From Pseudoleptotrichia goodfellowii (GTDB taxonomy: Bacteria > Fusobacteriota > Fusobacteriia > Fusobacteriales > Leptotrichiaceae), in contig NZ_AP019822.1 of NCBI RefSeq assembly GCF_007990505.1, positions 1,302,001-1,366,000 of the forward strand: a DNA stretch of 64,000 bases. The letters run 5' to 3'. Shown here piece after piece: positions 28,171 to 58,674 of the stretch. Every line of letters begins with the position of its first letter. Positions within the stretch are counted from its first letter, which is position 1. Below the pieces are notes generated by a model. That model was not told where the DNA came from, did no database searches, and saw only the letters and a program-made list of their open reading frames with translations. A program made the translations under genes and the position numbers.

Positions 28171-28881
28171 TTATTGTTCGAGTATACTTTCTAATGCCAA
28201 TTCTACCATTTCGTTGAAGTCTGATTGTCTTTCTTTTGAAGAAGTAGCTTCTCCTGTAACAAGAGAATCACATATTGTCAGTAAAGTTAAAGCATTCACT
28301 CCAAATTTGGCAGCAGTAGTATATAATTGTGCCGTTTCCATTTCCACACACAGTACTCCGAATTTTGCCCATTTTTTCCAGTGTTCAGGTTCATCGTCAT
28401 AAAAAGTATCAGTAGAAAGTATATTTCCCGCCCTTATATTGATTTTTTTTAATTTTGCTGTTTTATATGTTCTGAATAATAAATCAGGGCTTGCTGTAGG
28501 TGCGTAATCTGCACCGTTAAATCTTAGCTTGTTTATATTCGACTCTGTTGACGAAGAAATTGCCATAACTATATCTCTTACTTTTAAATCTTTTTGGAAT
28601 GAACCTGCAGTTCCTACTCTTATCAAATTCTTAACTCTGTATTCAGTTATAAGTTCATGAGAATAAATTCCTGTTGAAGGAGTTCCCATACCTGTCCCTT
28701 GTACTGATACTTTTTTTCCTTTATATGTTCCTGTAAAGCCTGACATTCCTCTGACACCATTATACTGCATTACATTTTCAAAAAAAGTTTCCGCTATGTG
28801 TTTTGCTCTCAAAGGATCTCCCGGTAATAATATTGTTTCTGCTATTTCTCCTCTTTTCGCTTCTATATGGGGTGTTCCCAT
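28171..28881 (-). CDS. deoD: Purine-nucleoside phosphorylase DeoD (copy 1)
   Basis: This enzyme splits purine (deoxy)nucleosides with phosphate to base and (deoxy)ribose-1-phosphate; it is the hexameric DeoD type (236 aa). It has [26 protein letters not shown] at the N terminus, RVGTAGSFQ near residue 87, VEMETAQLY near 178 and the purine-binding CDSLVTGE near 203. The copy at 29348 is highly similar over its full length. It ends the transcription unit after cdd, 21 bases downstream of it. Confidence 0.95.
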
Positions 28882-28902
28882 TTTTCTTTCCTCCTGAACA
28901 AT

Positions 28903-29331
28903 TTACAAATCTTCCGGTCCGAACGAATAAGGCAACAACTCGTCTATAGACCAGATTTTATACTTTTTATCTCTATTTGTTAGAATAATAACTGTGTCTT
29001 TATCGGAAAATTCCGATATAAACTGTCTGCATGCACCGCAAGGACTTATCGGCTCAGGAGTTCCTCCTGTTACTATAAGCAGCTTGATTTTTTTCATACC
29101 TTCGGTTACGGCTGTGGGTATTACATTTCTTTCGGCACATATTCCCACTCCATAAGAAGCATTTTCCACATTCACGCCTTTAAATTTTTTTCCGTTCTGA
29201 TCTATCAGCAAAGCAGCTACAGGAAACTTGGAATAAGGCACATAAGCCCTATCCAATGTTTCGTTTGCTTCATCAATATAGTCGGATATTTCTTTTTCAG
29301 TCAATTTTATTTTTCCTGTCAATTCTTTCAT
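28903..29331 (-). CDS. cdd: Cytidine deaminase
   Basis: Cdd converts cytidine and deoxycytidine to (deoxy)uridine (142 aa, the small tetrameric type). The zinc site is complete: ICAERNVI gives the catalytic Cys and Glu and PCGACRQF gives the other two cysteines. YVPYSKFPVAALL near residue 31 is family typical. It sits between the two deoD copies (16 and 21 bases), so deaminated nucleosides feed the phosphorylases of the same region. Confidence 0.95.
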   Translation of the reverse strand: MKELTGKIKLTEKEISDYIDEANETLDRAYVPYSKFPVAALLIDQNGKKFKGVNVENASYGVGICAERNVIPTAVTEGMKKIKLLIVTGGTPEPISPCGACRQFISEFSDKDTVIILTNRDKKYKIWSIDELLPYSFGPEDL

Positions 29332-29347
29332 TTTTATCCCCCGTTTA

Positions 29348-30058
29348 TTACAAGTTTAAAGCACTTTCCAATGCTACTTCTATCATATCGTTAAATGTAA
29401 GTTGTCTTTCTTCTGCAGAAGTTGCCTCTCCGGTAACTAAAGAATCACTTATTGTAAGTAATGTCAAAGCATTTACTCCAAATTTTGCTGCAGTTGTATA
29501 TAGTTGAGCAGTTTCCATTTCTACGCACAACACTCCGAATTTTGCCCATTTTTTCCATGCTTCAGGCTCGTCTCCGTAAAAAGTATCACTCGTAAGAACA
29601 TTTCCCGCTTTCATGCTGAGTCCTTTAGCTTTTCCCACTTCATATGCTTTAAATAACAAATCTGCACTTGCAGTAGGAGCATAATCTGCACCGTTAAATC
29701 TCAACTTGTTTATAGCTGAATCTGTTGATGCCGCCATTGCTATAACTACATCTCTTATTTTTACACTTTCCTGAAAAGAACCTGCAGTTCCTACTCTTAT
29801 TAAATTTTTACATCCGTATTCATTTATCAATTCATGAGAATAAATCCCTATCGAAGGCACTCCCATTCCTGTTCCCTGAACGGAAACTTTTTTTCCTTTA
29901 TAAGTTCCTGTAAATCCTAACATTCCTCTGACATTGTTATATTGTACTATATCCTGTAAAAATGTTTCCGCAATGTATTTCGCTCTTAACGGATCTCCCG
30001 GTAATAATATTGTTTCTGCTATGTCTCCTTTTTTTGCTCCTATGTGTGGTGTTGCCAT
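29348..30058 (-). CDS. deoD: Purine-nucleoside phosphorylase DeoD (copy 2)
   Basis: This is a second full-length DeoD (236 aa) with the same motifs as copy 1 ([28 protein letters not shown]), but SDSLVTGE in place of CDSLVTGE at the purine site and different surface residues. It lies 11 bases after the TfoX-like gene. The two copies flank cdd. They may differ in base preference or may be a recent duplication; sequence alone does not decide. Confidence 0.95.
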
Positions 30059-31762: not shown

Positions 31763-32938
31763 TTATAATATCTCCTTAGCAAAACTTCCTTCTTTTTCAG
31801 TTCCTAAAAGTATTTCTTCTATTGTTGCCGCTATATCTGCAAAAGTTTTTCTTACCCCTATATTTACATTCTTTTTAACTTTTTTTCCTGTTACAAGTAT
31901 AGGGATATACTCTCTTGTGTGATCTGTCCCTTTATAAGTAGGGTCATTTCCGTGATCGGCAGTAATTATAAGGATTTCGTCATCTCTCAAATTTTTCTCA
32001 ATTTCAGGCAGCCAATTATCAAACTCGATTAAAGCATTTACATATCCCTGAACATTTCTTCTATGACCGTAAACCGCATCAAAATCTACCAGATTTGTAA
32101 ATATAAGTCCTTTCGTATTTTCTTTTAATGCCGCAACAGTTTTTTTAATTCCGTCAAGGTTATCCTGATTGGCTTTTCTGTTATCTGTAATTCCTTTTCC
32201 GTTGAACAGATCACTTGTTTTTCCTATTCCTACTACATCAAGTCCTGCTTTTTCAAGTCTTTCAAGCATGGACTCTTTAGGTGGATCAATGGAAAAATCA
32301 TGTCTGTTGGCAGTTCTTTTAAATTCTCCGACTTTTTTTCCTACATAAGGTCTTGCGATTACCCTTGCAACAGGAGAAATTCTGTTACATATTTCCAGAG
32401 CGATTTCACAACCTTTGTATAACTCTTCAAGAGGTATTACATCTTCATTTGCTGCAATCTGAAACACAGGGTCTGCAGATCCGTAAACTATCCAATCTCC
32501 TGTTTTTATTTGTTCCTCTCCGAATTTATCAATAATCACCGTTCCCGAAGCAGGTCTGTTCCACAATACTTTTCTTCCTGTTTTTTCTTCAAATTCTTTT
32601 ATGACTTCGTCGGAAAATCCATTTGAATAGTTAGGGAACGGTCTTTCTAAAGGTACACCTGCAATTTCCCAGTGTCCTGTAGTCGAATCTTTTCCGATAG
32701 ATACTTCTACCGCCTTACCGTAAGCTCCTTCTGCTTCTTTTACAGCAGGAGTTCCTTCAATTTTAGTTATATTTCCTAATCCCAATTTTCCCATATTAGG
32801 TAAACTCATTCCGCCTGCAGCTTTTGCCATATTTCCTAATGTGTTTGAGCCTACATCATCAAAATCCGCAGCATCAGGTAATTCTCCCGCTCCGACACTG
32901 TCCAGGACTATTAATGTTATTCTGTTTATATCTTTCAT
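31763..32938 (-). CDS. deoB: Phosphopentomutase
   Basis: DeoB converts (deoxy)ribose-1-phosphate from the phosphorylases to the 5-phosphate (391 aa). It has the alkaline-phosphatase-like metal sites: VLDSVGAGELPDA at the N terminus, IGKDSTTGHWEIAG near residue 80 with the phosphorylated threonine region, and ITADHGNDPTYKGTDHTREYIP near 325. It is the first gene of the unit that continues through the NUDIX, flavin, TfoX, deoD, cdd and deoD genes. Confidence 0.96.
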   Translation of the reverse strand: MKDINRITLIVLDSVGAGELPDAADFDDVGSNTLGNMAKAAGGMSLPNMGKLGLGNITKIEGTPAVKEAEGAYGKAVEVSIGKDSTTGHWEIAGVPLERPFPNYSNGFSDEVIKEFEEKTGRKVLWNRPASGTVIIDKFGEEQIKTGDWIVYGSADPVFQIAANEDVIPLEELYKGCEIALEICNRISPVARVIARPYVGKKVGEFKRTANRHDFSIDPPKESMLERLEKAGLDVVGIGKTSDLFNGKGITDNRKANQDNLDGIKKTVAALKENTKGLIFTNLVDFDAVYGHRRNVQGYVNALIEFDNWLPEIEKNLRDDEILIITADHGNDPTYKGTDHTREYIPILVTGKKVKKNVNIGVRKTFADIAATIEEILLGTEKEGSFAKEIL

Positions 32939-33049: not shown

Positions 33050-33150
33050 ATGACTGAACACATCGTCATCGGTATTCTCTCATTAATGTCATTTCAGAAT
33101 TGATTGTGTATTTTATAATCAGATTCATTGAAAAACATCATGAGAGGTAA
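33050..33150 (+). pseudogene. Candidate type I toxin (Fst-like small membrane peptide), frameshifted
   Basis: A perfect AGGAGG precedes ATG by 6 bases. The ATG frame gives 17 residues (MTEHIVIGILSLMSFQN) and then stops. The next frame continues with ELIVYFIIRFIEKHHER and a stop at 33148-33150. One added base in the TTT run near 33092 would join them into a 33-residue peptide: short N terminus, one membrane span, charged C-terminal tail. That is the size and layout of Fst/Ldr-type toxins. It could be a decayed gene, a sequence error or a peptide that is truly 17 residues. It lies alone on the plus strand in the 463-base gap 32939-33401. Confidence 0.5.
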
Positions 33151-33205
33151 AGAAAAAACCCCTGTAGCAGCAGGGATTTTTAGGTAAACATTGACTGAAT
33201 ACATC
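33051..33205 (+). repeat. Direct repeat pair flanking the toxin-like gene and terminator
   Basis: TGACTGAACACATC (33051-33064, over the toxin start) recurs as TGACTGAATACATC (33192-33205) beyond the terminator, 13 of 14 bases identical. Fst-type par loci have such repeats so that convergent RNAs pair at the toxin start. Confidence 0.65.
33060..33180. terminator. Bidirectional terminator of the toxin/antisense RNA pair (hairpin at 33160-33175)
   Basis: The hairpin itself is at 33160-33175 (CCCTG / CAGGG), with AAAAAA on its left and TTTTT on its right, so it works in both directions. It ends the toxin-like message and, from the other side, the antisense RNA. The remaining part of the interval is the toxin-like message body. 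Confidence 0.55.
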
Positions 33206-33211
33206 ATTTAC
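33155..33211 (-). ncRNA. Candidate antisense antitoxin RNA
   Basis: A consensus promoter at 33218-33245 points left, and the shared terminator ends at about 33155. This predicts an RNA of roughly 55-60 bases that contains the complement of the second direct repeat and the terminator hairpin. It could pair with the toxin-like message at the start codon region and the hairpin, as RNAII does in the pAD1 par system. Not proven. Confidence 0.5.
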
Positions 33212-33217
33212 AAACTT

Positions 33218-33245
33218 ATTATACCACATCTACAAAAAAAGTCAA
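33218..33245 (-). promoter_or_regulatory. Promoter of the antisense RNA
   Basis: TTGACT (33240-33245) and TATAAT (33218-33223) are spaced by 16 bases, with TGG before the -10. No coding frame follows, only the short antisense region. Confidence 0.7.
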
Positions 33246-33401: not shown

Positions 33402-34163
33402 CTATTTTTCTCCAACAATCATTCCTTTTTGAATATATTCTTTTATTTTCATACCGTAACCCCATTTTTCAGCGTAAGCATCGGTTACTTCATCTTTTAA
33501 GATGATTATATTTTTAAAGCCTGATTTCTCTATTATTTTATATAATTCTTCCTCCGGAATCGCTCCTCCTACTCATGTACAATGCATTTTTTCAGATTTT
33601 CTCCATTCTTTCGGCAAATCTTTTTTCAATATTATATCGGAAATATAGAATTTTCCTCCTGATTTTAAAATTCTGTACAATTCATCATATGTTTTCTGTT
33701 TATCCGGCTCAAGGTTAATAACGCAGTTGCTTATTGCTTTATCTATACTGTTTGAATCAAAAGGCATATTCGTAAGAGTTCCTCTTCTAAATTCTATATT
33801 TTTAAATTTTTTCATATCCCTAATTTTTTCAGCTTTTTTTATTATGTCCTCTAACCTGTCCATACCGTAGAGAACACCTGAATTAGGATATTTCATTCTT
33901 GTCAAAAAGATATCTTTTCCTGTTCCACAACCTAAATCTATAAGAGTTTCTCCGTCATTTAAAATTAGATTCTCAAGAGGATTCCCACAAGAAAGCCCTG
34001 TGTCCGCTTCTTCAGGGAGTTGCTTTAACATTTCCTGATTATAACCCAAAGATTCGGATATTTTTTCGGGAGAAATATGTGTTTTATATTCTTTGTCGAA
34101 AATTTTTTGATAAAATTCATCGACTTTTTCTCTTATTTTTTCATTATCATTTTTATTTTTCAT
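33402..34163 (-). CDS. arsM: Arsenite methyltransferase ArsM-like, with in-frame UGA (candidate selenoprotein)
   Basis: This SAM-dependent methyltransferase methylates trivalent arsenic (253 aa if UGA is read through). The SAM site is LIDLGCGTGKDIF near residue 75. ArsM landmarks are LSCGNPL near 63 and the SNCVINL cysteine near 145. Codon 197 (33573-33575) is TGA, and the same frame continues without break for 56 more codons as VGGAIPEEELYKII...IVGEK to a TAG. In ArsM relatives this place holds a conserved Cys (CxCxGGA type motif); here it reads HCT-UGA-VGGA. A hairpin UUCC-GGA-GGAA starts 13 bases after the UGA with G in its loop, as in bacterial SECIS elements. The alternative is a nonsense mutation. 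It lies 47 bases after deoC. Confidence 0.8.
33549..33559 (-). promoter_or_regulatory. Candidate bacterial SECIS hairpin
   Basis: UUCC-GGA-GGAA on the message, starting 13 bases downstream of the arsM UGA, with two Gs at the start of the loop. Position and loop fit the loose bacterial SECIS rules. The stem is only 4 bp, so the support is modest. Confidence 0.35.
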
Positions 34164-34210: not shown

Positions 34211-34876
34211 TTAATATTTTCCTTCTTCTACTTCTAATCCTTTTATTATTTCGATTCCCGAGCTTGTTCCGAGTCTTGTTGCTCCCAACTCTATATATTT
34301 TTGAGCAGTTATCAAATCTTTTACTCCACCGCTTGCTTTCACTTGAGCTTTATCACCTACTATCGATTTCATTAATTTTACATCATCAAAAGTTGCTCCT
34401 CCTGTTCCGAATCCTGTGGAAGTTTTTACGAAATCGGCTTTAGCATTTAGAGAAAGTTCACATGCTTTTTTCTTTTCTTCGTCTGTCAAATAGCAAGTTT
34501 CTATTATCACTTTCAACACATTATTTCCGATTGCTTCTTTTATTTCTCTTATTTCCTGCTCTACATAAGCGTATTCTCCGTCTTTCAAAGCAGCCACATT
34601 TATAACCATATCTATTTCAGAAGCACCGTCTTCTATAGCTTTTTTAGCTTCAAAAACTTTCACATCTTTGGACATTGCTCCCAAAGGAAATCCTACAACT
34701 GCTGCCACTTTGACATCACTGTCTTTTACCTGTTCATAGGCATATTTTACATTAGCTCCGTTTACACATACAGAAAAAAATTTGTATTCTTTTGCTTCGT
34801 CACATAATTTTTTTATATCCTTTTTTTGAGCTGTCGCCTTTAAAATCGTGTGATCAATATATTTATTTATTTCCAT
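34211..34876 (-). CDS. deoC: Deoxyribose-phosphate aldolase
   Basis: DeoC cleaves deoxyribose-5-phosphate to acetaldehyde and glyceraldehyde-3-phosphate (221 aa). The Schiff-base lysine is in FVKTSTGFGTGGA near residue 153 and the second catalytic lysine is in VKASGGVKDL near 182. The N terminus NKYIDHTILKATA is typical. It follows the pyrimidine phosphorylase gene by 36 bases, giving the last step of the deoxynucleoside route. Confidence 0.96.
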   Translation of the reverse strand: MEINKYIDHTILKATAQKKDIKKLCDEAKEYKFFSVCVNGANVKYAYEQVKDSDVKVAAVVGFPLGAMSKDVKVFEAKKAIEDGASEIDMVINVAALKDGEYAYVEQEIREIKEAIGNNVLKVIIETCYLTDEEKKKACELSLNAKADFVKTSTGFGTGGATFDDVKLMKSIVGDKAQVKASGGVKDLITAQKYIELGATRLGTSSGIEIIKGLEVEEGKY

Positions 34877-51201: not shown

Positions 51202-53004
51202 TTAGTTTTTCGCTTTTATAGGTGCATCAGCTGTCAATTCTACCAAATGTACCATTTTTCCTAATTTTTCAGCATCATATCCCACATAAAAGTTTTTTAC
51301 TCTTTTATTTACCGGATACAACTGATATCTATAAGTCAAAGGCACCTCTACTGCTTGATTTATGTAATATTCCTGCCATTTTATCAATGCTTCGGCTTTA
51401 TAATTAGGATCTTCCAAAGTTTTCGGACTTGCAATTTCAGCCATAAGTTTATCGTTTTCGTCAGAAGCAAATCTTGTATAGTTAAACATTGCTTTACGTC
51501 CTGCCGTTCCATATGGATCAGGATCCGTATCTACTCCCCATGCAGCGAAATATACATCTATTTCAGGATCGTCAGCTTCCACTTTATCATAAAAACTGTT
51601 AAACTCTATAAGTCTTCCTGTTGCAAGTACCCCTTTTATCCCTATCTGTTTCCATTGTTGGATATAATATTGAGCTAATGGTTCTGCTATATCTCCTCCC
51701 GACATTGCAGCTATTTTTATTTCAAGAGGTTTTCCATTCTTATCTTCTCTGTATCCGTCACCGTCCACATCTTTGTATCCTGCTTCATCCAAAAGCTTTT
51801 TAGCTTTTTCCAGATTGTATTCAAATCCTTTGAAATCTTTAGGATAATATTTCTTAAATACAGGCGGCACAGAAGAAGTAGCTTTTTCTCTCAACCCTTC
51901 ATAAAAAGCATTTACCATTTCTTCAGTACTTATTCCATATGCTAACGCCTGTCTTAATCTTAAATCACTCATTTTTTTGTCAGGATCTACAACATTTTCT
52001 CCTTTAGCTTTATCAAAATGTCCCATTTTAAATCCCATATAAGAATAATACAATTCTTGTCTTCCGAGCACTTCCAAGTTATCAAAATCTTTATATGTTT
52101 TATACAGATCTGTCGGTATATTTAAAGCAATGTCGTATTCTCCGGCTTTCATAGCGGCTCCTATTGTTTGAGAGTTTACTACCTGTATAATTACTTTTTC
52201 TATTTTCGGTTTTCCTCTGAAATAATGCTCATTGGCTTTCAGTTCCAAACTTTCTCCCTGTACAGAATTTGATATAGTATAAGGTCCTACTGTTACTATA
52301 TTTTTTCTTATTTTATCGGATTTTTCCAAATCTTTTATCGGTACATCCTGTAAATAGTGTTTCGGTAAAGCGTATCTTAACAGTCCGTTTGTTGTAGCAG
52401 TGTATATTCCCTGTCCTAATTGCTTAAAGGTAATTTCTACAGTTTTGTCATCAACCTTTTTTATTCCTGAAATATTTGGAGTTTTTCCTGCATGATATTC
52501 TTCCATTCCTACTATTTTTGTACTTTCATCATTATATCTTATTCCCGTATAATCTTTATTTCCAAGAACTTCATAAGCATATATAACATCATCTGCAACT
52601 ACAGGCTGTCCGTCAGACCACTTCATATTGTCTTTAATTTTTATCGTTACTTTTTTATTCGGAACATCCACAGCCAATGTCGCAATACCTGTATCTGTAA
52701 CTTCAAAATTTTCATCGATGTCTAAAATATAACCGCCTACAAACCAGTCCAGAATATCTCCGTCATATCCGTCTTTATACATTGCATAGTTAAATATTCC
52801 TACAATAGGTGAATCTTTAACCATGGCAACTTTAAGTGTTCCTCCCGAAACGGCTTTACCGTCATTAGATGTTTCTGTCGGAAACTTAAATTCTTTTTTA
52901 TCTCCGTTTCCTCCGTTACTTTTCTTTTCTCCCGGCCCGCAAGCCGTCATCAACACACACATAATAATCATAATCAGCACTGAACCTGCATTTTTCAATT
53001 TCAT
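51202..53004 (-). CDS. Oligopeptide-binding lipoprotein (SBP family 5), copy 1
   Basis: This is a periplasmic peptide-binding lipoprotein (600 aa) with lipobox LMTAC (Cys22). It is an SBP_bac_5 protein: KIKDNMKWSDGQPVVADDVIYAYEVLGNKDYTG near residue 128, LRQALAYGISTEEMVNAFYEG near 350, and AKKLLDEAGYKDVDGDGYRED near 395. It is about 60-70% like its three tandem neighbours by eye and the most divergent in its N-terminal lobe. It belongs to the unit started by the promoter before copy 2. The ligand is probably a peptide; differences among copies suggest distinct ligand ranges. Confidence 0.93.
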   Translation of the reverse strand: MKLKNAGSVLIMIIMCVLMTACGPGEKKSNGGNGDKKEFKFPTETSNDGKAVSGGTLKVAMVKDSPIVGIFNYAMYKDGYDGDILDWFVGGYILDIDENFEVTDTGIATLAVDVPNKKVTIKIKDNMKWSDGQPVVADDVIYAYEVLGNKDYTGIRYNDESTKIVGMEEYHAGKTPNISGIKKVDDKTVEITFKQLGQGIYTATTNGLLRYALPKHYLQDVPIKDLEKSDKIRKNIVTVGPYTISNSVQGESLELKANEHYFRGKPKIEKVIIQVVNSQTIGAAMKAGEYDIALNIPTDLYKTYKDFDNLEVLGRQELYYSYMGFKMGHFDKAKGENVVDPDKKMSDLRLRQALAYGISTEEMVNAFYEGLREKATSSVPPVFKKYYPKDFKGFEYNLEKAKKLLDEAGYKDVDGDGYREDKNGKPLEIKIAAMSGGDIAEPLAQYYIQQWKQIGIKGVLATGRLIEFNSFYDKVEADDPEIDVYFAAWGVDTDPDPYGTAGRKAMFNYTRFASDENDKLMAEIASPKTLEDPNYKAEALIKWQEYYINQAVEVPLTYRYQLYPVNKRVKNFYVGYDAEKLGKMVHLVELTADAPIKAKN

Positions 53005-53043
53005 ACCATCCTACCTCCAGTTTATTTATTGATTTTAATATAT

Positions 53044-54843
53044 TTATTTGCTTGATTTTATCGGATCTTTAGTCGTTAATTCCCATTTATGTATTCCTTC
53101 ACCTTTTTTAGCACTGTCACGTCCTATATAATAGTTTTTTACCCTTTTGTTTACAGGGATTATCGCATATCTGTAAGTCAAAGGTACTTCTACTGCCTGA
53201 TTTATATAATATTCCTGCCATTTTTTATATGCTTCGGCTTTATAATTAGGATCTTCAAGAGTTTTCGGACTTGAAGTTTCAGCCATTAATTTATCATTTT
53301 CATCAGAGCCGAATCTTGTGAGATTAAACTGTGATCTTCTTCCTGCACTTTCTACAGGATTCAGATTTGTTCCTACTGCCCATGCGGCAAAGAACACATC
53401 TATTTCAGGGTCATCAGCTTCTAATTTTTCATAAAAACTGTTGAACTCCATAAGTCTTCCTGTACTTAATACTCCTTTTATTCCTATTTCTTTCCATTGT
53501 TGGATATAAAACTGTACTAACGGCTCAGCTATATCTCCACCTGCCATTGCTGCGATTTTTACTTCAAAAGGTTTTCCGTTCTTATCTTCTCTGTATCCGT
53601 CACCGTTTACATCCTTATATCCCGCTTCATCAAGGAGTTTTTTAGCTTTTTCGGTATTATAAGGGAATCCTTCTATATCTTTTGAAAAATATTTTTTAAA
53701 TGCAGGCGGTACTGACGACGTTGCTCTTTCTCTTAATCCTCCGTAGAAAGCTTTTACCATTTGATTGACGTCAAGTCCGTAAATAAGTGCCTGTCTCAAT
53801 CTTATATCTGCCATTTTTGCATTAGGATCTGTTATATTTTCATTTTTTGCTTTATCAAAATGTCCCATTTTAAATCCTACATAAGAATAATACAATTCCT
53901 GTCTTCCCAATATTTGTAAATTATCGTAATCTTTGTAAATGTTGTACTGATCCGACGGCATTTGTATAACCATATCATATTCTCCGGCTTTTAATGCCGC
54001 TGTTATTGTATTGGAGTTTACAACCTGAACTATTACTTTTTCTATTTTCGGTTTTCCCTTAAAGTAATATTCGTTGGCTTTCAATTCAAGGCTTTCTCCC
54101 TGAACTGCATTAACTATATTGTATGCTCCCAAACTTATAATTTTACTTCTTACTTTTTCCGATTTTTCCAAATCTTTTATCGGTATATCTTTCAAATAGT
54201 GTTTAGGCAATGCCGACCCTTGAAGTCCGTTTCCTATAGTGTAGACTCCCTGTCCCAATTCATTAAAAGATACTTCTACCGTTTTATCATCTATTTTTTT
54301 CAATCCCGATATAGTATTTGCTTTTCCCTCGTGATATTCCTTCATTCCTACTATTTTTACAGAATCATCGTCATATCTCGGTCCTGTATAATCTTTATTT
54401 CCTATCACTTCATAAGAGTATATTACATCATCTGCTGTCAAAGGTTGACCGTCAGACCACTTTATTCCGTCTTTTATTTTTATTGTCGCTTTTTTATTCG
54501 GTGCATTCACTGTCAGTGTAGCCGGTCCTGTATCTGTAACTTCAAAATTTTCATCTACATCAAATATTGAGTTACTGAAAAAGGAACTGACTAAATCCTG
54601 ATCATATCCGTCTTTATTCAACTCTGAATAAAAAATTCCTACAAGTGGCGAATCTTTAACTATAGCCACTTTCAATACCGCATCTTTCACTGCGGGATCA
54701 TTGTTCGATGTTTCAATCGGAAATTTTGAAGCATCTACCGCATCCTTTTCCGCATTACTCTTTTTATTTCCCGGTCCACAAGCTACCATTAATATACACA
54801 TAATAACCATAATTAATGTCGACCCTGCATTCTTCATCTTCAT
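53044..54843 (-). CDS. Oligopeptide-binding lipoprotein (SBP family 5), copy 2
   Basis: This is a second peptide-binding lipoprotein (599 aa), lipobox LMVAC (Cys22). The mature N terminus after Cys is GPGNKKSNAEKDAVDASKFP; the short linker KSNAE/DASKFPIETSN is shared with copy 3. It has the same SBP_bac_5 landmarks as copy 1 (IKWSDGQPLTADDVIYSYEV; LLDEAGYKDVNGDGYRED). It starts a separate unit: a terminator after copy 3 and a new -10 box lie upstream. Copy 1 follows 39 bases downstream. Confidence 0.93.
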   Translation of the reverse strand: MKMKNAGSTLIMVIMCILMVACGPGNKKSNAEKDAVDASKFPIETSNNDPAVKDAVLKVAIVKDSPLVGIFYSELNKDGYDQDLVSSFFSNSIFDVDENFEVTDTGPATLTVNAPNKKATIKIKDGIKWSDGQPLTADDVIYSYEVIGNKDYTGPRYDDDSVKIVGMKEYHEGKANTISGLKKIDDKTVEVSFNELGQGVYTIGNGLQGSALPKHYLKDIPIKDLEKSEKVRSKIISLGAYNIVNAVQGESLELKANEYYFKGKPKIEKVIVQVVNSNTITAALKAGEYDMVIQMPSDQYNIYKDYDNLQILGRQELYYSYVGFKMGHFDKAKNENITDPNAKMADIRLRQALIYGLDVNQMVKAFYGGLRERATSSVPPAFKKYFSKDIEGFPYNTEKAKKLLDEAGYKDVNGDGYREDKNGKPFEVKIAAMAGGDIAEPLVQFYIQQWKEIGIKGVLSTGRLMEFNSFYEKLEADDPEIDVFFAAWAVGTNLNPVESAGRRSQFNLTRFGSDENDKLMAETSSPKTLEDPNYKAEAYKKWQEYYINQAVEVPLTYRYAIIPVNKRVKNYYIGRDSAKKGEGIHKWELTTKDPIKSSK

Positions 54844-54903
54844 ACTGTCCTACCTCCGGTTTTATTTATTGATTTTGTTAATTAATTTTATCACTTTCCA
54901 TAC

Positions 54904-54909
54904 ATTATA
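54904..54909 (-). promoter_or_regulatory. -10 box before lipoprotein copy 2
   Basis: TATAAT lies 61 bases before the copy 2 start. Only a weak -35 is seen (TTATGA, 16 bases upstream). It follows directly after a terminator, so copies 2 and 1 can be expressed apart from the rest. Confidence 0.5.
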
Positions 54910-54930
54910 TCAATCTTTTTTTATTTCATA

Positions 54931-54965
54931 AAAAAATGCCGATAAGCCTTATTTTATCGACATTT
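54931..54965 (-). terminator. Internal terminator between lipoprotein copies 3 and 2
   Basis: A long hairpin (AAATGTCGATAAA paired with TTATCGGCATTT, one G-U) ends in TTTTTTT on the minus strand. It splits the opp cluster after copy 3. The rest of the gap 54844-55046 is AT-rich. Confidence 0.85.
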
Positions 54966-55046
54966 CTTTTAATTATTCCGTTTTTTGTATATTTTATATT
55001 TTTTATATAAATTTTATATATATTATATATAGGTCTTTATACAAAA

Positions 55047-56837
55047 TTATTTACTTGCTTTTATAGGTTCTTTAGCTGTCAATTCCCATTTATGTATTCC
55101 TTCACCTTTTGTAGCTTCATCAAATCCTATATAGAAGTTTTTCAATCTTTTATTTACAGGTACCATTTCATATCTGTAAGTTAAAGGTACTTCAACTGCC
55201 TGAGGTATAAAATATTCCTGCCATTTTTTATATGCTTCGGCTTTATAATTAGGATCTTCCAATGTTTTAGAACTTGCAGTTTCCGCCATTAATTTGTCAT
55301 TTTCATCAGAAGCAAATCTCGGATAGTTAAACATTGATTTTCTTCCTGAACCTTCTATAGGGTTTAAGTTTGTTCCTACTGTCCATGCAGCGAAGAATAC
55401 GTCTATTTCAGGATCATCAGCTTTTACTTTTTCATAGAAACTGTTAAATTCTATAAGTCTTCCTGTAGATAACACTCCTTTTATCCCTATTTCTTTCCAT
55501 TGTTGGATATAGAACTGTACTAACGGTTCAGCTATATCTCCGCCTGCCATTGAAGCAATTCTCACTTCAAAAGGTTTTCCGTCTTTATCTTCTCTGTATC
55601 CGTCACCGTTTACATCTTTATATCCCGCTTCGTCAAGTAATTTTTTAGCTTTTTCAGGATCATAAGGGAATCCTTTTATATCTTTTGAGAAATATTTTTT
55701 AAATATCGGAGGTACTGATGATGTTGCTCTTTCTCTTAATCCGTTATAAAATGCTTTAACCATCTGATCCACATCAAGTCCGTAAGCAAGAGCCTGTCTC
55801 AATCTTACGTCTGCCATTTTTGCATTGGGATCAGGTATATTTTCTCCTTTTTCTTTATCATAATGACCTACTTTGAATCCCATGTAAGAATAGTATAATT
55901 CCTGTCTTCCCAATACTTCCAAGTTATCATAGTCTTTATATACTTTATACTGATCTGTAGGTATTCTTAAAGCCATGTCATATTCTCCCGACTTCAAAGC
56001 CTGAGATATTGTATTGGAGTTTACAACCTGAACTACTGCTTTTTCTATTTTCGGTTTTCCTTTAAAGTAATTTTCGTTTGCTTTCAATTCCAAACTTTCT
56101 CCCTGAACCGAATTGGATATACTGTATGCTCCCAAAGTTACTACTTTACTTCTTATAAGTTCCGATTTTTCCAAATCTTTTATCGGTACATCTTTCAAAT
56201 GATGTTTAGGTAATGCTGTTCCACGAAGTCCGTTTCCTAAAGTGTAGACTCCCTGTCCTAATTCTGTAAACGAAACTTCTACAGTTTTATCATCTATTTT
56301 TTTCAATCCTGAAATATTAGGTGCTTTTCCCTCATGATATTCTTTCATTCCTACTATTTTTGTAGAATCATCATTATATCTTATTCCTGTATAATCTTTA
56401 TTTCCCACTACTTCATAAGAATATATTACGTCATCTGCAGTCAAAGGCTGCCCGTCAGACCATTTTATTCCGTCTTTTATTTTTATCGTTGCTTTTTTAT
56501 TTGCAGCATCTACTGATAATGTAGCCATTCCTGTATCTGTAACTTCAAAATTTTCATCTACTTCAAATATTTGATTATTGAAAAATGTTTCCGCTATTTT
56601 TCCGTCAAATCCGTCTGAGTAAAGTTCCTCATAAAATACTCCTACAAGAGGCGAGTCTTTAACTATAGCTACTTTTAAGACCGCATCTTTTACTGCTGCG
56701 TCTTTATTGGATGTTTCTATAGGAAATTTTGAAGCATCTACTGCTTCGTCCCCTGCATTACTCCTCTTTTTCCCCGGTCCGCATGATATTAGCAGCATTA
56801 AAATAAACAAAGTCATTACTGTTCCGATTTTTCTCAT
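55047..56837 (-). CDS. Oligopeptide-binding lipoprotein (SBP family 5), copy 3
   Basis: This is a third peptide-binding lipoprotein (596 aa), lipobox LLISC (Cys19). It is very close to copies 2 and 4 across the central lobe (KTVEVSFTELGQGVYTLGNGL; NIPDPNAKMADVRLRQALAYGL). It lies 43 bases after copy 4 and is followed by a strong terminator. As the last gene of the upstream opp unit it should be made together with the membrane components. Confidence 0.93.
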   Translation of the reverse strand: MRKIGTVMTLFILMLLISCGPGKKRSNAGDEAVDASKFPIETSNKDAAVKDAVLKVAIVKDSPLVGVFYEELYSDGFDGKIAETFFNNQIFEVDENFEVTDTGMATLSVDAANKKATIKIKDGIKWSDGQPLTADDVIYSYEVVGNKDYTGIRYNDDSTKIVGMKEYHEGKAPNISGLKKIDDKTVEVSFTELGQGVYTLGNGLRGTALPKHHLKDVPIKDLEKSELIRSKVVTLGAYSISNSVQGESLELKANENYFKGKPKIEKAVVQVVNSNTISQALKSGEYDMALRIPTDQYKVYKDYDNLEVLGRQELYYSYMGFKVGHYDKEKGENIPDPNAKMADVRLRQALAYGLDVDQMVKAFYNGLRERATSSVPPIFKKYFSKDIKGFPYDPEKAKKLLDEAGYKDVNGDGYREDKDGKPFEVRIASMAGGDIAEPLVQFYIQQWKEIGIKGVLSTGRLIEFNSFYEKVKADDPEIDVFFAAWTVGTNLNPIEGSGRKSMFNYPRFASDENDKLMAETASSKTLEDPNYKAEAYKKWQEYFIPQAVEVPLTYRYEMVPVNKRLKNFYIGFDEATKGEGIHKWELTAKEPIKASK

Positions 56838-56880
56838 TGCTTTACCTCCAAAATTTTTAATTATAAATTTTCTTTTAAAT

Positions 56881-58674
56881 TTATTTACTTGCTTTTATAG
56901 GCTCTTTAGCCGTCAATTCCCATTTATGTATTCCTTCACCTTTTGTAGCTTCATCAAGTCCTATATAATAATTTTTTACTCTTTTATTTACAGGTACTAC
57001 TCTGTATCTATAAGTTAGAGGCACTTCAACTGCTTGATCTATATAGTATTCCTGCCATTTTTTATATGCTTCGGCTTTATAGTTAGGATCTTCCAATGTT
57101 TTAGGACTCGCAACTTCAGCCATTAATTTATCATTTTCATCAGAAACAAATCTTGTAAGGTTAAATTGGGATTTTCTTCCTGCACCTTCTATAGGATTTA
57201 AGTTCGTTCCTACTGTCCATGCAGCAAAGAACACATCTATTTCAGGATCATCAGCCTGAACTTTATCATAAAAACTGTTAAATTCTATAAGTCTTCCTGT
57301 AGTTAATACAGCTTTTATTCCTATTTCTTTCCATTGTTGGATATAAAATTGTACCAATGGTTCAGCTATATCCCCTTGTGCCATTGCAGCTATTCTGACT
57401 TCAAAAGGTTTTCCGTCTTTATCTTCTCTAAATCCGTCACCGTCTTTATCTTTATATCCGGCTTCATCAAGTAATTTTTTAGCTTTTTCTTTATCATAAG
57501 GATAACCTTTTATGTCTTTTGAGAAATATTTTTTATAAACAGGCGGTACTGATGATGTTGCACTTTCTCTTAAACCGTCATAAAAAGCGTTTACCATTTG
57601 ATCTTTGTCAAGTCCGTAAGCAAGAGCCTGTCTTAATCTTACATCTGACATTTTTGCATTAGGATCTGTTATGTTTTCTCCTTTTACTTTATCATAATGC
57701 CCTACTTTGAATCCCATATATGAATAGTATAAATCCTGTCTTCCTAATATTTCCAAGTTATCGTAGTCTTTATACACTTTGTACTGCTCATTAGGCATTT
57801 GAATAACCATATCGTATTCTCCGGATTTTAGAGCTGTTGATATTGTATTAGAACCTACAACCTGAACTACTACTTTTTCTATTTTCGGTTTTCCTTTAAA
57901 ATAATACTCGTTAGCTTTTAATTCCAGACTTTCTCCCTGAACAGAGTTGGAAATAGTGTATGCACCCAAAGTTACTATTTTACTTCTTGATTTTTCAGAT
58001 TTTGGCAGATCTTTTATAGGTACATCTTTTAAATAATGTTTAGGCAATGCCGATCCCTGAAGTCCGTTTCCTACAGTATAAATACCCTGTCCTAATTCTG
58101 TAAATGATACTTCTACTGTTTTATCATCTATTTTTTTCAATCCTGAAATATTAGGTGCTTTTCCTTCGTGATACTCTTTCATACCTACTATTTTTAAGTC
58201 TTCATCATTATATCTTATTCCTGTGTAATCTTTATTTCCTACCACTTCATAAGCGTATATTACGTCATCTGCAGTCAAAGGCTGACCGTCAGACCATTTT
58301 ATTCCGTCTTTTATTTTTATTGTTGCCTTTTTATTCGAAGCGTCTACTGTTAATGTAGCCATTCCTGTATCTGTAACCTCAAAATTCTCATCTACATCAA
58401 AGATTTGACTATTAAAGAATGTTTCCAATATATATCCATCCGGACCATCTTCATATAATACCGGATTAAATAACCCTACAATAGGAGAATCTTTTACAAC
58501 TGCCACTTTCAGTACCGCATCTTTTACTGCAGGAGCATTATTGGAAGTTTCTACAGGAAACTTTGAAGTATCGGCTTTTTCGCCTCCTCCTTGGCTTTTT
58601 CTTTCGCCTGGACTGCAAGCTGTCAATAACATTAAAACAAATAGAACTAAAATAGTTCCTGTTCTTTTCATCAT
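56881..58674 (-). CDS. Oligopeptide-binding lipoprotein (SBP family 5), copy 4
   Basis: This is the fourth peptide-binding lipoprotein (597 aa), lipobox LLTAC (Cys20), and the one nearest the permease genes (51 bases after oppC), so it is perhaps the original partner. SBP_bac_5 landmarks are complete. Compared with copy 3 it differs mostly in N-terminal surface segments (NPVLYEDGPDGYILETFFNSQ), the part that often contacts ligand. Confidence 0.93.
   Translation of the reverse strand: MMKRTGTILVLFVLMLLTACSPGERKSQGGGEKADTSKFPVETSNNAPAVKDAVLKVAVVKDSPIVGLFNPVLYEDGPDGYILETFFNSQIFDVDENFEVTDTGMATLTVDASNKKATIKIKDGIKWSDGQPLTADDVIYAYEVVGNKDYTGIRYNDEDLKIVGMKEYHEGKAPNISGLKKIDDKTVEVSFTELGQGIYTVGNGLQGSALPKHYLKDVPIKDLPKSEKSRSKIVTLGAYTISNSVQGESLELKANEYYFKGKPKIEKVVVQVVGSNTISTALKSGEYDMVIQMPNEQYKVYKDYDNLEILGRQDLYYSYMGFKVGHYDKVKGENITDPNAKMSDVRLRQALAYGLDKDQMVNAFYDGLRESATSSVPPVYKKYFSKDIKGYPYDKEKAKKLLDEAGYKDKDGDGFREDKDGKPFEVRIAAMAQGDIAEPLVQFYIQQWKEIGIKAVLTTGRLIEFNSFYDKVQADDPEIDVFFAAWTVGTNLNPIEGAGRKSQFNLTRFVSDENDKLMAEVASPKTLEDPNYKAEAYKKWQEYYIDQAVEVPLTYRYRVVPVNKRVKNYYIGLDEATKGEGIHKWELTAKEPIKASK

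Follow-up and report, generated by a model that had tools for sequence, protein, structure and literature searches.

A further example of a selenocysteine-containing ArsM-like methyltransferase, probably encoded through an in-frame UGA in Pseudoleptotrichia goodfellowii

Introduction

Arsenite methyltransferase (ArsM) is counted among the experimentally verified prokaryotic selenoproteins, with selenocysteine (Sec, U) in a UxxG motif, and Table 1 of the source gives WP_011987699.1 as the example of a Sec-containing ArsM, credited to Fomenko et al. 2007 (PMC13188914). Two other studies report this form, a 2016 survey in 39 organisms (PMC5029168) and another in ocean metagenomes (PMC2398784). 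The arsenic-binding site of these enzymes has been described in human AS3MT, where C206, C156 and C61 bind As(III), C156 and C206 are required in both methylation steps, and a fourth conserved cysteine (human C32, C44 in CmArsM of Cyanidioschyzon merolae) was considered not to coordinate arsenic (PMC3877260). Bacterial Sec insertion elements (SECIS) are captured by a published model defined by a G in the first two loop positions, a distance of 16-37 nt past the UGA, a stem of at least 4 bp, and a folding energy of at most -7.5 kcal/mol; according to PMC13188914, a subset of these bSECIS elements falls outside the model.

In this work, we characterized an ArsM-like gene with an in-frame UGA located in a 64-kb stretch of P. 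goodfellowii DNA (hereafter the window, whose positions are used unless otherwise indicated), which belongs to a genome assembled as a single 2.29 Mb contig with 99.97% completeness. As Sec-containing ArsM is already catalogued in the three sources cited above, this gene is not a new kind, and constitutes a well-supported further example of a known family. The likeness is one of description: as portrayed in the excerpted text of PMC13188914, the known proteins share with ours an ArsM-like fold and one UGA-encoded Sec in UxxG (here UVGG). Conversely, our gene belongs to a lineage that this excerpted text does not name for Sec-containing ArsM, its protein scores below the curated cut-off of the ArsM family model NF008823, and it has no adjacent ars genes.

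Results

The ArsM-like gene and its in-frame UGA

The gene lies at 33402..34163 on the minus strand, the strand having been left out of the preliminary description of this DNA, and its open frame, with TGA translated as U, encodes 253 residues with Sec at position 197 and ends at TAG. Under translation table 11 the ORF (34163-33573, minus strand) has 196 codons and stops at the TGA, which occupies 33573..33575 on the minus strand (33575-33573 in reading direction) and is taken to encode Sec on the basis of the UGA in relatives, the TGT in Gemella cuniculi and the alignment to CmArsM. Past this codon the frame is uninterrupted for 56 codons up to the TAG at 33402-33404 (minus strand), and this post-UGA coding region (33402..33572, minus strand) is supported by the predicted structure and by the constraint measured against a homologue, both presented below; every element of the frame initially described is thus present.

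Within the window, TGA is the stop of only 4 of the 60 long ORFs, and the other three would extend in frame for 3, 4 and 22 codons, compared with 56 in the ArsM-like gene, so that the contrast originally drawn, of an in-frame UGA unique to this gene in the window, holds. With UGA ending these three other long ORFs, a changed genetic code was rejected. The same terminations count against a reading of the codon as tryptophan, or by non-specific readthrough, in which no selenium would be involved; further, the homologous residue is cysteine and not tryptophan, and the genome harbors a full sel locus. The weakness of the hairpin that follows the UGA (see below) would favor such a reading, which we nonetheless regard as very improbable.

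Selenocysteine machinery of the genome

Selenocysteine at this position was initially proposed to depend on the finding of selA, selB, selD and a tRNA-Sec gene, and all four were identified above curated cut-offs and adjacent to one another, clustered within 5.5 kb: tRNA-Sec (genome positions 843024-843116; 72.7 bits against a gathering score of 47), selD (843310-844212; 369 bits), selB (845285-847132; 332 bits) and selA (847185-848531; 598 bits), the last three over their family cut-offs. Two short frames between selD and selB were assigned by eye, and we take them to encode a YedF/SirA-like protein and a DUF3343-like protein. The selD gene carries its own in-frame UGA at the active-site motif CGGUNSK (L048:1447-2502), with a hairpin having a CGGGU loop downstream; because of this UGA, at least one further selenoprotein is very likely encoded in the genome.

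In a set of 98 genomes from the phylum, UGA-bearing matches to the ArsM-like protein (E 1e-15 or better) occur in seven, each of which has selA, a gene found in only 52 of the 98; by our own arithmetic, in which relatedness is ignored, the chance of finding selA in seven out of seven would be about 0.01. The one Cys-only match in the phylum belongs to a genome without selA.

Conservation across relatives

In G009, a relative from a different genus within the family, the gene has UGA at this codon and its product is 74% identical. UGA is also found in a second genome of the family (G005), Ezakiella sp. and Fenollaria massiliensis, at 39-41% identity, and the homologue of Gemella cuniculi DSM 15828 (L053:3998-4753), with 55% identity over its full length and cysteines at the positions of C59 and C147, has Cys (TGT) in place of Sec. 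Position 197, whose state in close relatives had been singled out for comparison at the outset, is therefore occupied by UGA in five genomes of the subgroup, and by Cys in Gemella cuniculi. The preliminary description had placed it in a conserved motif, HCT-UGA-VGGA; the UGA position is indeed conserved, but relatives that retain the UGA have Asn or Ala in place of C195, the preceding partner of U197 in that motif, and there is consequently no conserved CxC pair.

Conservation of the gene is highest past the UGA, and the downstream decay that would have spoken for a broken gene was not found in the relatives. Compared with G009, protein identity is 86% after the UGA and 71% before it, with dN 0.078, dS 1.71 and dN/dS 0.046 in the former, and dN 0.203, dS 1.45 and dN/dS 0.14 in the latter; furthermore, 23 of the 32 nucleotide differences after the UGA fall at third codon positions. 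These values bear on the possibility that the gene is a 196-residue pseudogene, derived from a Cys form by a truncating nonsense mutation. In favor of this possibility, a single base separates UGA from TGT or TGC, and Gemella has TGT; nevertheless, the UGA is common to several genera, the protein downstream is under the strictest constraint, and truncation would remove the invariant residue together with the last strands of the fold. Strict selection on the downstream protein and the retention of UGA in relatives exclude a recent nonsense mutation, and given the post-UGA constraint against G009 this origin was rejected as scarcely credible.

In the tree, the Cys form of Gemella clusters with the window gene at 98/100 support and lies between Sec forms, which implies at least one Sec/Cys switch within the subgroup. 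Loss of selA does not account for the Cys form of Gemella cuniculi, whose genome has this gene. The ArsM-like gene is absent from the two other genomes of the genus that were examined, although both have selA, and can thus be considered an accessory gene. A single-sequence scan of the collected genome contigs for ArsM-like homologues gave no match, and an alignment-based scan of the same contigs gave three loci.

Family assignment, structure and arsenic-ligand positions

Residues 6 to 234 match NF008823 (arsenite methyltransferase; E 3.1e-63), with 213.8 bits, computed with C for U, against a curated cut-off of 263; because of this shortfall we refer to the protein as ArsM-like. It also matches the Pfam methyltransferase domain PF13847 and CmArsM (4kw7/4fr0; E 2.4e-24). 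Scores against ArsM_DUF2284_UU and ArsM_AhpD_UU (NF041536 and NF041537), two families of double selenoproteins, lie well below the cut-offs (148.8 vs 575 and 136.2 vs 510, respectively); their methyltransferase part is homologous and has Sec at the same position, whereas the window protein carries a single Sec and stops at the end of its methyltransferase domain, with no second domain fused to it. One relative, L050, is longer and has two UGA codons.

The AlphaFold2 model has a pLDDT of 92.9, and its best structural match is CmArsM 4fr0 (Z 24.0, rmsd 2.7, 211 residues aligned), a match by which the protein shows the fold of the SAM-binding and arsenic-binding domains of ArsM/AS3MT. The fold is shared over residues 39-253 (Z 24) with CmArsM (4fr0, 6cx6) and human AS3MT (8xt7), and the C-terminal domain present in CmArsM beyond about residue 279 is lacking. 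Residues 197-253 are modelled with high confidence and the alignment reaches CmArsM residue 279; in the predicted structure, the final strands of the methyltransferase domain come from the post-UGA segment, and a 196-residue product would be devoid of U197 and of these strands.

In the phmmer alignment, U197 corresponds to CmArsM Cys224 (Cys206 in human AS3MT), C147 to Cys174 and C59 to Cys72, in agreement with the earlier proposal that the UGA replaces an arsenic-binding cysteine of the family. The three arsenic-ligand positions are therefore shared with CmArsM and human AS3MT, one of them being Sec instead of C224/C206. No cysteine was found in the window protein at the place aligned with the fourth conserved cysteine (CmArsM C44, human C32). 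In more distant UGA-bearing relatives (L022 and L051), C59 and C147 are replaced by Thr and Ser, which makes arsenite uncertain as their substrate.

Candidate SECIS hairpin

A candidate SECIS hairpin, UUCC-GGA-GGAA, lies at 33549..33559 on the minus strand, beginning, exactly as first reported, 13 bases past the UGA (33559-33549), with its loop 17 nt past that codon. The hairpin agrees with the shape of the published model in its loop G, distance and stem of at least 4 bp, having only four Watson-Crick pairs. Its energy is modest: the 81-nt fold has -7.2 kcal/mol and a z of -0.07, not separated from shuffled sequences, and the 63 nt from the UGA on fold at -4.7 kcal/mol, both short of the -7.5 kcal/mol limit, with a fold window that differs from that of the published tool. 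An Rfam scan of the 64-kb window gave no match.

Being weak by energy, the hairpin owes its candidacy as SECIS to the comparison with relatives. In G009 it reads CUUCU-GGA-AGAAG, the closing C-G pair of the window hairpin having become U-A; the corresponding elements are UAACUUC-GGA-GAAGUUA in G005, CUUCAGA-GGC-UCUGAAG in Fenollaria and CUUCAG-AGGAA-CUGAAG in Ezakiella, and more distant UGA-bearing relatives (G058, G088 and G094) have CCAGAAAA-GGU-UUUUCUGG or close to it. A hairpin with GG in the loop, 16-23 nt past the UGA, was found in all UGA genes tested, and none in the two Cys genes tested, that of Gemella cuniculi included. Under a synonymous-codon null, the probability was 0.024 for a stem with a GG/GU triloop, and 0.07-0.10 with looser definitions. 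Taken together, these patterns suggest that the hairpin acts as a SECIS element.

Gene neighborhood and substrate

The gene is flanked by genes of nucleoside catabolism, namely deoC upstream (34211..34876, minus strand; TIGR00126, 282.5 bits vs a cut-off of 117.3), a pyrimidine-nucleoside phosphorylase gene, and deoB downstream (31763..32938, minus strand; TIGR01696, 494.6 bits vs 341.2). No match to an Acr3- or ArsP-type arsenical transporter (acr3, arsP) was found in the genome.

Alternatively, the protein could be a genuine Sec-197 selenoprotein whose natural substrate is not arsenite but, for instance, selenium, tellurium, antimony or a thiol compound, its ArsM likeness being ancestral only. 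The missing acr3 and arsP matches and the deo neighbors favor this view, as do the contigs of relatives (L053-L055), in which no ars genes were recognized by eye beside the homologues, the scores under the curated ArsM cut-off, and the missing counterpart of CmArsM C44. Against it stand the presence of all three arsenic-ligand equivalents (C59, C147 and U197), the best structural match being CmArsM, and the general knowledge that arsM genes can occur outside ars operons. We consider a non-arsenite substrate a real but minority possibility, and by analogy arsenite is, with some reservation, the probable natural substrate.

Other features of the window were also recorded. Two DeoD-type purine nucleoside phosphorylase-like genes of 236 aa each flank a cytidine deaminase gene at 28171-30058, the second copy being one that we presume to be of this type from inspection by eye of its sequence. 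At 33050-33245, a short ORF that stops early has a strong ribosome-binding site (33050, plus strand), a neighboring frame reads as a small hydrophobic peptide, and a terminator-like hairpin (33160-33175, plus strand) is accompanied by a strong promoter-like site in the opposite direction (33245-33218, minus strand); by analogy, this arrangement resembles that of bacterial type I toxin-antitoxin loci and may be a decayed copy. Finally, four consecutive genes of 596-600 residues at 51202-58674 (minus strand) all encode Opp4A-like oligopeptide-binding proteins, with 566-582 bits, just below the curated cut-off of 650.

Discussion

The sel locus, the conserved UGA, the conserved downstream protein and the Cys counterpart all support the reading of UGA-197 as Sec with which this DNA was first described, and from these sequence comparisons the gene very probably encodes a selenoprotein; we infer that Sec is actually inserted at UGA-197. 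The product would be a 253-residue ArsM-like SAM-dependent methyltransferase, in whose synthesis SelB, guided by the short hairpin just past the codon, would bring Sec-tRNA to UGA-197, and translation would go on for 56 residues, by which the methyltransferase fold would be completed. Trivalent arsenic would most likely be bound by the selenol of U197 together with the thiols of C59 and C147, and then methylated by SAM. Judged from sequence, the enzyme most likely binds a trivalent metalloid in a Sec-dependent manner and methylates it with SAM; homology points to arsenite.

An anaerobic bacterium with ArsM has been found elsewhere to produce methylarsenite, a proposed weapon against competitors (PMC11653729). 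For the Sec-containing ArsM-like subgroup of this lineage, Fenollaria and Ezakiella, with its Cys form in Gemella, we offer as a tentative and rather doubtful proposal that it acts on a non-arsenite substrate, or methylates arsenic outside any ars operon, Sec having been chosen for the chemistry at the metalloid-binding site.

A standard-code reading makes the gene appear to be a truncated methyltransferase, and gene callers for which UGA is a stop would cut it short at that codon. The proper annotation is a selenoprotein that extends to the TAG. Furthermore, the window gene and its Gemella cuniculi homologue, which has Cys and no GG-loop hairpin despite selA in the genome, form a natural Sec/Cys pair that is well suited to asking what selenium gains an arsenic-binding methyltransferase.
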